This document shows positions 14,235-33,039 of a stretch of 33,924 nucleotides of DNA, in pieces. The notes under the pieces were generated by a model that saw nothing but the letters and a program-made list of their open reading frames with translations, did not search any database and was not told the origin of the DNA. The stretch is from Planctomycetaceae bacterium (GTDB lineage Bacteria > Planctomycetota > Planctomycetia > Planctomycetales > Planctomycetaceae): positions 1-33,924 of the forward strand of contig JANQQW010000207.1 in NCBI GenBank assembly GCA_028284885.1, written 5' to 3'. The number at the start of each line of letters is the position of its first letter. Position 1 is the stretch's first letter. A program made the position numbers and the translations under genes.

Positions 14235-14266
14235 CACCGGGCGTTGCGTTTTCGCAACGCCCGGTG
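14235..14266 (+). terminator. Hairpin terminator after the DUF1559 gene
   Basis: A perfect 14-bp stem, CACCGGGCGTTGCG paired with its complement, closes on a TTTT loop 37 bp after the stop codon. There is no long T run behind it (TTGCGTT follows), so it may act as a weak intrinsic terminator or as an RNA-stabilising 3' end. Confidence 0.7.
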
Positions 14267-14405
14267 TTGCGTTGGTCCGACACGCATGCGTTCTGCGCGA
14301 TACGTTCTCGGGCCGGCGCGACGGAGCGCCTGCGATCGCCCCACCGGTTGGCCCGGACGAAGTGGCCCCACGTCGTCCCGCGCTCGCCGCACGCGCCCGC
14401 CCGAG

Positions 14406-16795
<2,390 letters not shown>

Positions 16796-16799
<4 letters not shown>

Positions 16800-16820
16800 G
16801 GTGGGCTCCGCCCACCAACG
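16796..16820. repeat. REP-like palindrome (family A), single unit over the ftsK stop
   Basis: GTAGGGTGGGC-TCC-GCCCACC forms a 7-bp hairpin with a 3-base loop. The TAG in its first bases is the ftsK stop codon (16797-16799). The same unit recurs near 17114, 17167, 31174, 31861, 31918, 31964 and 32018. Confidence 0.8.
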
Positions 16821-17113: not shown

Positions 17114-17190
17114 GTAGGGGTGGGCTCTGCCCACCAACGCCGCGGATCAGACGCCGAACGTCGGGGCTGGTGGGCAGAGCCCACCCTACG
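17114..17190. repeat. REP-like inverted pair (family A)
   Basis: The left unit 17114-17138 (TGGGCTCTGCCCACCAAC) and the right unit 17167-17190 (TGGTGGGCAGAGCCCACCCT) are inverted around a short centre containing GACGCCGAACGTCGG. The layout (two hairpins facing each other, about 77 bp in all) is the same as in the elements beside the RAYT gene at 31174-31249 and 31964-32040. Confidence 0.85.
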
Positions 17191-31173: not shown

Positions 31174-31249
31174 GTAGGGTGGGCTTTGCCCACCAGCCCC
31201 GTTGTTCGACGTCCAAAGTTCGGCATGGTGGCCAGAACCCACCCTACGG
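31174..31249. repeat. REP-like inverted pair (family A) at the 3' end of the RAYT gene
   Basis: The left unit GTAGGGTGGGCTTTGCCCAC begins at 31174, the right unit (reverse) ends with CCCACCCTACGG at 31249, and the centre holds TTCGACGTCCAA. The RAYT stop codon (TAG on the reverse strand, 31244-31246) is part of the right unit. The right hairpin is slightly degenerate (GGTGGCCAGAACCCACC). Confidence 0.85.
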
Positions 31250-31801
31250 TTCTCCGGCGGTTGCGGCGAGGTCGTCGAACGTGAGGGCCGTGCGGCCCCA
31301 GTGCTCGTCGTACACGCCACGCGCCACCCAACGACGAAACGAGGAGTGCGGCCAGTCTGCGGGAGACGAGGCCAACCCGTGCTTCACGGGGTTGTAGTGC
31401 ACGTAGTCGAAGTGGCGGTCGAAGTCGTGCTCGTCCTCGACGGCGTGTTCCCAGAACCGCGGCTGCCAGACGCCGCGGTCACCACGATCCCGGCGAACCT
31501 CGGAGACCGGTTGTTCGGCTCCCCCGGCCGCGAGCCAGGCCTTCGTGAACTCCTTCTTGATCCACGCCCACCGCTGGCCGTAGTCGGAGTCGCCGCGCGG
31601 CAACGTCCAGATCGCGTGGAGGTGATCTGGGAGCAACACGATCGCATCGATCTCGAACGGCCACGCTTCCCGACACTCGCGCAGTTTGTCGCCGAGGAGC
31701 TCCCGAGCCGACACGTCCGCAAACAGTGGGCTCCGTCCGTGCGTGACGACGGTGAAGAAGTACGTCCCACCCTCGATGCGTGAGCGGCGGTAGTCGGCCA
31801 T
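31244..31801 (-). CDS. REP-associated tyrosine transposase (RAYT, Y1/IS200-like)
   Basis: This 185-residue single-domain protein belongs to the Y1 HUH nuclease family that includes IS200/IS605 TnpA. It contains YFFTVVTHGR near 14-23, the HUH metal site as PDHLHAIW (His60, His62), the RAYT-type block WQPRFWEHAVEDEHDF at about 112-127 and the tyrosine motif DYVHYNPVKHG with Tyr133 as the likely nucleophile, then WPHSSF. Such enzymes cleave single-stranded REP hairpins and are linked to REP spread. The start is ATG 31801; the longer frame to 31933 runs through a repeat. The gene is bounded on both sides by inverted family A units, which are its probable substrates. The coding frame is intact. 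Confidence 0.93.
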   Translation of the reverse strand: MADYRRSRIEGGTYFFTVVTHGRSPLFADVSARELLGDKLRECREAWPFEIDAIVLLPDHLHAIWTLPRGDSDYGQRWAWIKKEFTKAWLAAGGAEQPVSEVRRDRGDRGVWQPRFWEHAVEDEHDFDRHFDYVHYNPVKHGLASSPADWPHSSFRRWVARGVYDEHWGRTALTFDDLAATAGEP

Positions 31802-31811
31802 CGCCTCCTCC

Positions 31812-31881
31812 GTAGGGTTCCGCCGACCAGACCCGGGATTGGACGTCCGATCTGCAGCGTGGTGGGCAAAGCCCACCCTAC
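31812..31881. repeat. REP-like inverted pair (family A), one arm degenerate, 5' of RAYT
   Basis: The unit facing the gene is worn (GTAGGGTTCCGCCGACCAG from 31812), the outer unit is intact (GGTGGGCAAAGCCCACCCTA, 31861-31880), and the centre holds ATTGGACGTCCGAT. It starts ten bases upstream of the RAYT start codon. Confidence 0.75.
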
Positions 31882-31917
31882 AAGACTCTCGACCAAGTCG
31901 AACCCGCGTTTCCGCGT

Positions 31918-31940
31918 GGTGGGCAGAGCCCACGCTACGG
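31918..31940. repeat. Single REP-like unit (family A)
   Basis: GGTGGGCAGAGCCCACGCTA forms the 7-bp hairpin with a 3-base loop; one base differs from the usual CCCACCCTA end. No partner unit lies beside it. Confidence 0.75.
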
Positions 31941-31963
31941 GACGAGACCGTTGATCCGCAGAC

Positions 31964-32040
31964 GTAGGGTGGGCTTCGCCCACCAGCCCGAGTGTTTGAC
32001 GTTCAATCCGCGGTGTGGTGGGCAGAGCCCACCCTACGGG
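31964..32040. repeat. REP-like inverted pair (family A), intact
   Basis: GTAGGGTGGGCTTCGCCCAC (from 31964) faces GGTGGGCAGAGCCCACCCTA (32017-32036), with TTTGACGTTCAAT in the centre. It is the best-preserved example, and it lies 40 bp downstream (in the gene's sense) of the HTTM gene stop. Confidence 0.85.
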
Positions 32041-32079: not shown

Positions 32080-33039
32080 CTACGAGGCCTCTGCGCGGTG
32101 GCCGAGGGCGTTGCGGAGGGGGGACCAGTGGGTGAGGCGGGTGGTGGTGGTGCGGAGGTGGTCGAAGAGGGGAGACCAGGGGACGTAGGCGGCGAACATC
32201 GCGCCGCTCATCTGGTAGTCGAAGTGGATCCCCATGATCCAGGCGATGCCGTAGTGCATGCCGAACGTGGCGATCGCCCACCCGGCGAGCAGGCGGCGGT
32301 TCACGAGGAACAGCGGCGCCCCGATCTCGACCACGAGTGTCATCACGCCGACGAACGTGAATACCGCGACGTAAGGGTACAGCATCTCGCCGAGCGGCGA
32401 GCTCGCCTCGCCGAACAGGTGCTTGCGGACCAGGTTGACGGCCACCTGCGACCGGACGACCTCGCCGGACGCCCAGCCCCACCCGGCCGGCCCCAGGACC
32501 TTCGCCACGCCGGCGAGGAAGTAGACCATCGCCGTGACGGACATCACGAGGGCGACCGGCCAGCCGTACCGCCAGTCGGTCGCGGGCACGGTCGAGCTTC
32601 GGCGCGAGCCGAACAGTCGGTCGAGCGAGAGGGAGTCCGCGGCGTGCGAGACGCCGACGACGAGCAGGTGCAGCGCGAACAGGTTGTGCGAGTGGTGCAC
32701 CATCCCGAACGAGTTGCGGTAGCTCAGCAGGAACATCATCAAGAGGGCGAACGCCGGCCCGGTCACCCGGAACGCGGCCCCCAGCAGGAAGGCGACGTTC
32801 AGGACGACGGCCGCGGCGATCAGCCAGCCGACGACCTCGGGCGGGAGCGGCACGGACAGCAGTCGGGCCAAGCCGACCGGACGAAACAGGTCGCTCGGCA
32901 GTTCGGCCGTGCGCGACAGCAGCTTGTACCGGGACTCCAGGTAGAACAGCCCGTAGCCGCCGAGGACGATGCGGATGGCGGCGAGGCCGTCCGCGCGACG
33001 CGGCTGCCAGAACCAGTCGAGAACGACGCGCGGACTCAT
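32080..33039 (-). CDS. HTTM-domain (vitamin K-dependent carboxylase-like) membrane protein
   Basis: This 319-residue protein has six or seven hydrophobic segments, at about 20-40, 70-90, 95-115, 120-140, 165-190, 230-255 and 260-280. It matches the HTTM group: an opening with RADGLAAIRIVLGGYGLFYL, the internal motif MVHHSHNLFALHLLVVG, then MVYFLAGVAKVLGPAGWGWASGEVV and ATFGMHYGIAWIMGIHFDYQM. HTTM proteins resemble the membrane part of gamma-glutamyl carboxylase, but their own activity is unknown. The start overlaps the stop of the upstream gene by four bases (ATGA), so it is in an operon with the next two genes. Read downstream, it runs into the family A repeats. Confidence 0.85.
   Translation of the reverse strand: MSPRVVLDWFWQPRRADGLAAIRIVLGGYGLFYLESRYKLLSRTAELPSDLFRPVGLARLLSVPLPPEVVGWLIAAAVVLNVAFLLGAAFRVTGPAFALLMMFLLSYRNSFGMVHHSHNLFALHLLVVGVSHAADSLSLDRLFGSRRSSTVPATDWRYGWPVALVMSVTAMVYFLAGVAKVLGPAGWGWASGEVVRSQVAVNLVRKHLFGEASSPLGEMLYPYVAVFTFVGVMTLVVEIGAPLFLVNRRLLAGWAIATFGMHYGIAWIMGIHFDYQMSGAMFAAYVPWSPLFDHLRTTTTRLTHWSPLRNALGHRAEAS

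Follow-up and report, generated by a model that had tools for sequence, protein, structure and literature searches.

We analysed a 33,924-nucleotide stretch of DNA from a Planctomycetaceae bacterium (assembly GCA_028284885.1, contig JANQQW010000207.1, positions 1 to 33,924; the window in what follows), which holds a gene for a REP-associated tyrosine transposase (RAYT, or TnpAREP) among copies of a short hairpin, a repetitive extragenic palindrome (REP). That the locus is a REPtron with its own REP family is well supported. We consider it very probable that this planctomycete RAYT would bind, nick and spread the hairpins flanking its own gene, with residue 106 of the protein likely reading the hairpin stem. 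This reading is based on the protein family, the modelled fold, the flanking hairpins, 28 exact copies of the unit in the genome and the agreement between stem and protein among relatives.

By analogy with Escherichia coli TnpAREP, the RAYT would bind the REP hairpin as single-stranded DNA and nick it near its GTAG foot through the Y-motif tyrosine, and the hairpins would spread through the genome as head-to-head pairs (REPINs), mobilised in trans without movement of the gene itself. The GTAG foot would be held by the conserved residues Q113, E118 and H119 and by the tail residues G183-E184. Helix alphaC and the alphaC-beta4 loop may read the stem, residue 106 being the likely reader of pairs 4-5 and residue 102 a possible one of base 3; a change at residue 106 would retarget the RAYT to another hairpin family.

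The RAYT gene and its flanking hairpins

The identification of the protein as a RAYT, first made by a sequence-only reading of the window, was borne out. The protein scored 192.8 bits against profile NF047646 (RAYT / TnpAREP; curated cut-off 80), and it carries the HuH motif DHLH (residues 59-62), the motif WQPRFWEH (112-119) and the Y motif YVHYNPVKHG (133-142), in keeping with the description of RAYTs as having a Y motif followed by NP(L/V)(R/K)xG (PMC2817692; here and below, statements from cited papers refer to the portions of them that were available). The gene is framed by inverted GTAG REPs, and its genome (399 contigs) holds one close copy of it plus a homologue of 29% identity on contig C130, that is, a single gene copy per REP type in this draft assembly; both are RAYT traits. 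In our structure model, built from 59 sequences, the region from helix 74-91 to strand 117-120 spans an alphaC-beta4 insertion and the residues after 155 form a C-terminal extension (a first model from 24 sequences was discarded as poor, pLDDT 61). Together with DHLH and YVHYNP, these are the protein features of TnpAY1 subclass 2.2, whose alphaC-beta4 insertions lie near a region involved in REP recognition (PMC6006769). The W motif reads WQ in the window RAYT and in E. coli, and WE in Table 1 of that paper. Residue 106 sits in the alphaC-beta4 segment of the model, directly after a short helix (101-105). Among the E. coli GTAG-contact residues, Q95, E100, H101, G160 and E161 correspond to Q113, E118, H119, G183 and E184 here, whereas R104 is E122.

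The unit around the gene is of the type GTAGGGTGGGCNNNGCCCACC, with a perfect 7-bp stem and a 3-nt loop. Matches to the hairpin core with up to two mismatches numbered 9 in the window, against 0.41 expected, and none of 100 shuffles reached 9. The sequence-only reading had placed two intact pairs beside the gene; both pairs exist, with ends at 31247 and 32037, and one hairpin of the first pair is worn. The half-worn pair that it described is present as well, as is the single unit near the gene, which has one mismatch (Table 1). Folded as single-stranded DNA, pair 31964-32037 reached -27.1 kcal/mol (z = -7.1) and pair 31174-31247 a z of -3.3; folding of the half-worn pair was unremarkable (z = -0.6).

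A count of the unit across the source genome, as the same reading had proposed, gave 28 exact GTAG units (13 forward, 15 reverse) in 6.47 Mb, and 0 for a reversed-pattern control. Twenty-two of them lie in head-to-head pairs, as dispersed REPs often do, and 15 of the 16 listed pairs span 63-77 bp (the other 124 bp), as expected of REPINs. The loop starts with T in 27 of the 28. The hairpins are the probable substrate family of the RAYT. The conserved centre GACGTYCAA, suggested earlier as part of the recognised element, was rejected, as GACGT occurs in only 5 of the 16 listed pairs; a longer target with AGTGAA ahead of GTAG was also considered, and 6 of the 28 units have a GTGA no more than 12 nt upstream of the foot. 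The second homologue in the genome is flanked by GTGG hairpins of other sequence. It belongs, as L012 (G000 C130), to a distant RAYT-like subclass together with L124, L274, L275 and L276 (about 28-33% identity), whose hairpins have GTGG rather than GTAG feet and include GTGGCACGCCC and GTGGCCCAGACA.

Residue 106 and stem bases 4-5

We compared the locus with a sample of 150 genomes of the family, 113 of which hold RAYT-like proteins (E 1e-3 or better); 32 hold the exact unit, with a control count of 0 in every genome. Flanks were inspected for 84 loci of the sample and 80 named loci, 65 of the latter being typed by stem. Several RAYT loci of the sample agree with loci of planctomycete metagenome-assembled genomes in identity and flanking hairpins, for instance L043 with L126 (Rhodopirellula sp. 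bin.212). GTAG hairpins with a perfect stem of at least 7 were found in 74 of 82 adjacent 300-bp segments versus 4 of 76 segments 1 kb off, and a permuted foot gave 0-2 units versus 102 with the real foot. A tree was built from 150 distinct RAYTs, 116 of them typed by stem, after removal of protein-sequence duplicates; RAYTs below 140 bits were left out of trees and column scans. On it the window RAYT joins L043 and L044 at support 97, each of these two having a GGTGGGC stem, and the group lies within a clade of 43 rows (support 95) in which every row could be typed. The 11 stems of this clade take 14 changes on the tree versus a shuffled mean of 30.5 (0/500 as low), and all 116 typed rows take 52 versus 95.8. 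Of 104 clade units, 97 have loops of 3-4 nt.

Four gammaproteobacterial methanotroph RAYTs, L131, L133, L137 and L138 (Methylomonas, Methylovulum, Methylococcaceae, Methylobacter), fall within this otherwise planctomycete clade and have the common stem GGTACGC. Because they nest there with one common stem, their position suggests that the REPtron moved horizontally between phyla.

Across 153 typed rows and 170 columns, column 106 was the most informative on the class of bases 4-5, at 1.23 bits, followed by column 108 at 0.66, whereas column 102 led for base 3 (0.40) and column 79 for base 7 (0.68). Lysine at 106 went with GG (41/41), glutamate or glutamine with A (23/23), aspartate or asparagine with C (16/19) and arginine with GC or GT (34/51). 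Within the clade, where 40 of the 43 rows were scanned (L119, L138 and L139 left out), all three rows with G at base 4 had R106, rows with A had E or Q in most cases, and those with C usually had D or N. Beyond the clade, all but one of the 73 typed rows (72) had G at base 4; R106 occurred there in 24/24 GC/GT rows and also in 10 GG rows, K was the commonest residue with GG, and five of seven GGTGGGC rows had H106.

The residue-106 rule, which holds for 98 of the 111 training rows that allow a call, was fixed in writing ahead of fetching new loci. Of 52 fresh loci we kept 51 (one duplicate was dropped), of which 39 were typed, 12 untyped and 29 callable. The rule was right for 25 of these 29 RAYTs, a partly dependent set that includes similar paralogues (e.g. 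L237/L252, L218/L244); shuffling gave a mean of 9.8, and 0/10,000 shuffles reached 25. By residue, it was right for E/Q in 4/4, K/H in 10/10, R in 10/13 and D/N in 1/2. The nearest training relative by identity gave the right answer in 20 of the 29, and where the two disagreed the rule was right 8 times and the relative 3. The other 10 typed loci had no rule call (8 Y106, one gap, one T), and 7 of the 8 Y106 loci had the stem GGTAGGC, with A at base 4.

A tree from which residues 98-110 had been left out yielded edge-disjoint pairs that pointed the same way (averages over draws, to one decimal). For base 5 C/T versus G with R106 there were 13.1 pairs in the same direction and 0.0 opposite (median p 0.00024). 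The corresponding averages were 5.0 and 0.0 for a basic residue with G versus A/C at base 4, and 2.6 and 0.0 for D/N with C versus A at that base; in another C-versus-A test a few of 200 draws went opposite. Residue 106 differed in 87% of stem-different versus 23% of stem-same pairs, first of 179 columns (excess 0.63, mean over all columns 0.12), the two sets of pairs being unmatched in divergence. Untyped RAYTs made up 34 of the 150 rows. Among the 28 of these that we inspected, with hairpins judged by eye, 22 had an inverted GTAG repeat common to both sides, its stem mostly imperfect, and K106 fitted GG in 7/7.

Because one amino acid predicts both letters in most cases, residue 106 likely reads stem bases 4-5; as a specificity determinant it is a strong statistical lead, and one that passed a test in which the rule came first. 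Arginine-guanine and glutamine-adenine pairings resemble common protein-DNA contacts. We lean slightly towards a fuller RAYT code, in which residue 106 would read pairs 4-5 (K/H for GG, R for GC/GT, E/Q/Y for A, D/N for C), residue 102 would help with base 3 and single substitutions could switch the hairpin family.

REP abundance and alternative explanations

Five stems were counted in the 150 genomes (present in 32, 58, 34, 29 and 49 genomes) and set against RAYT types. The unit is not equally frequent in genomes that lack a RAYT, a possibility that the sequence-only reading had named as telling against its proposal. All five genomes with a GGTGGGC-type RAYT, the source genome among them, hold at least 8 exact units (8, 20, 28, 30, 73; median 28), while at least 4 occur in 8 of 50 genomes with RAYTs that are untyped or of another stem (median 0) and in 9 of 95 without a RAYT of at least 100 bits (median 0). 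Mann-Whitney tests gave p 1.5e-5 and 7.1e-8, with relatedness left uncorrected. With the five stems taken together in 27 genomes, coupling scored 95.1, whereas permutation gave 43.9 on average (sd 7.2; 0/20,000). In genus g16 the genome with the GGTGGGC-type RAYT holds 73 units, and its four sampled mates 1, 13, 1 and 0.

Several results weigh against the REPtron reading or its residue-level part. The segment that bears residue 106 is missing from E. coli TnpAREP, whose R104, a GTAG contact, corresponds to E122 in the window protein. The rule failed for 4 of the 29 held-out RAYTs (R with GCTGGAA, R with GGTGGAT twice, D with GGCAGGT) and 13 of the 111 training rows, arginine is weak overall, and the C class depends on two held-out calls. 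Among imperfect hairpins H106 fitted 4/6 (exceptions L097 and L111, both GGTGTGA) and R106 only 1/5 (L188, and not L088, L100, L117 or L161), which makes R the weak point of the code. Well-supported branches alone give too few pairs for significance. On the genome side, where no test corrects for relatedness, 15 of the 32 unit-bearing genomes lack a RAYT of at least 100 bits, and G057 holds 251 exact GGTGGGC units (143 forward, 108 reverse) with its only full-length clade RAYT typed GGCAGGC. Stem GTCAGGC is weak (p 0.072; at least 4 units in 3/6 genomes), and in only 16 of 27 genomes does the most frequent of the five belong to one of the genome's own typed RAYTs. The orphan units could reflect gene loss, incomplete draft assemblies or the activity of another RAYT. 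The distant subclass was tried as their source and is unsupported: in the subset of orphan genomes examined, the distant RAYTs of G008, G086 and G093 have GTGG hairpins that differ in sequence, and the GGTGGGC unit is absent from two G057 stretches around distant homologues.

The alternative that we take most seriously, although we think it rather unlikely, is that the association of residue and stem hitchhikes on shared ancestry and that another part of the protein sets specificity. Stem and protein do follow one tree, the well-supported branches yield only 1-6 independent pairs per test, columns 108, 79, 83 and 102 are informative too, and the lack of matching in divergence between stem-same and stem-different pairs fits this view as well. 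However, the tree is common to all columns, yet column 106 leads by nearly twofold and tops the pair contrast; moreover, opposite pairs average 0.0 and the held-out disagreements favour the rule over the nearest relative.

The remaining alternatives concern the hairpins as substrate. It is improbable that a different or former RAYT amplified the units, with the resident gene as a bystander. Orphan units do exist, the GGTGGGC stem is found with RAYTs of several separate branches (10 rows with 6 changes), and L143 and L162, which share it, also have TGT loops; against this, T-starting loops both flank the resident gene and predominate in its genome while L104, L110 and L142 have mostly A-loops, and the second homologue has its own, different hairpin. 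We give slightly less weight still to a host role, as terminators, mRNA ends or protein-binding sites, with the hairpins near the RAYT by chance or selection. Such roles have been hypothesised for REPs (PMC3733652) and would suit the unit-bearing genomes that lack a RAYT of at least 100 bits, but among the 43 clade members stem and RAYT change together, the hairpins concentrate at the sides of the gene and genome counts follow RAYT type. Finally, the block 31174-32037 is very unlikely to be an IS200/IS605-like element that moves whole with REPINs as its ends: the genome holds one close copy rather than several near-identical ones, REPINs occur without the gene, and tblastn at 1e-5 found no match in 50,697 phage records.

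Relation to known systems and further features

The REPtron of the window is of an already known type, since work of 2010 on gammaproteobacteria described coevolution of RAYT and REP and found REP abundance to correlate with the presence of a RAYT (PMC2817692), GTAG REPs of a planctomycete, Rhodopirellula baltica, were catalogued in 2013 (Di Nocera 2013, PMC3733652; likened here by the tag alone), and a near-identical REP has been described from the gammaproteobacterium Haemophilus influenzae. The latter, GTAGGGTGGGCTTcAGCCCACC (RAYT NP_438385; Nunvar 2010, PMC2817692), shares the foot and the first 7 stem bases but has a stem one pair longer and a loop of two, and is likened by the REP alone. 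REPtron organisation has been described in general terms (PMC3733652), and head-to-head doublets of about 70 bp were proposed as the replicative unit in Pseudomonas fluorescens (Bertels and Rainey 2011, PMC3116915), to be set beside the 28 exact units here. In E. coli (RayT, PDB 4ER8) the REPs are long and require a bulge (PMC8266576), unlike the perfect stem here, and the alphaC-beta4 segment is present in the window protein only. Subclass 2.2 likewise has long, mostly bulged REPs (PMC6006769). The short, perfectly paired REP instead resembles those of the group 3 (subclass 2.5) duos of Stenotrophomonas and Marinomonas, to which perfect REPs have been tied (Corneloup 2021, PMC8266576), whereas the HuH and Y motifs and the C-terminal tail are those of subclass 2.2. 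The window REPtron thus departs from the two-group scheme of that paper, with group-2-like motifs and tail beside a perfect stem.

REPs are common bacterial repeats, and how each RAYT recognises its own REP is an open question; for the perfect-stem group, contacts were described in 2021 as only open to speculation without structures (PMC8266576). The coupling of RAYT type to REP abundance extends outside gammaproteobacteria, and the planctomycete-methanotroph clade is a natural mutagenesis set of 11 stems and 43 closely alignable proteins. Residue 106 reduces the recognition question to a single-substitution experiment. A residue-level RAYT code was not found in our literature search, which covered few subscription papers or bioRxiv preprints, nor in the available portions of PMC3686654 and PMC3116915; as far as that search shows, the residue-106 lead is the new part. 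If true, a recognition code would explain dozens of REP families under one protein family across phyla, and a RAYT would be a programmable single-strand-hairpin nuclease.

Table 1 RAYT gene and REP units in the window
Feature	Position	Strand	Remarks
RAYT / TnpAREP gene	31244..31801	-	185 aa
Codon of R106	31484..31486	-	Counterpart residue tracks REP stem bases 4-5 across RAYTs
REP unit, exact	31174..31194	+	Pattern match to GTAGGGTGGGCTTTGCCCACC
REP unit, 2 mismatches	31227..31247	-	GTAG foot supplies RAYT stop TAG (31244-31246)
Worn REP unit	31812..31832	+	Left half of half-worn pair; GTAGGG foot kept, stem broken; adjoins ribosome-binding site on its upstream side
REP unit, exact	31861..31881	-	Right half of half-worn pair
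Single REP unit, 1 mismatch	31918..31938	-	GTAGCG foot
REP unit, exact	31964..31984	+	Left half of best-kept REPIN
REP unit, exact	32017..32037	-	Right half of best-kept REPIN
Single REP unit	16796..16816	+	GTAG foot (16796-16799) contains TAG stop of open reading frame 14244-16799
REPIN pair	17115..17189	.	Left unit has one extra G after foot; right unit exact

The RAYT reading frame starts with the ATG at 31799-31801, and GGAGGAGG, a ribosome-binding site, lies upstream at 31804-31811. A TAG stop inside the GTAG foot of a perfect unit was seen at 6 of 207 RAYT loci (L053, L061, L066, L069, L104, L130). At L089 (G039:C1:572408-573816) the RAYT gene is followed by four repeated stretches matching query residues 122-176. 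The same genome, a single contig, holds the unit GTAGGGCAGGC(TCT/TCC)GCCTGCC in 31 forward and 11 reverse copies, mostly unpaired; among the places listed (164 kb to 3.09 Mb) all are on the plus strand, an apparently replichore-wise orientation. In the window, a gene for an HTTM-domain protein (PF05090) adjoins the RAYT gene at 32080-33039; it is present in 7 of the 150 family genomes, the source genome included, and its best relative has 45% identity.
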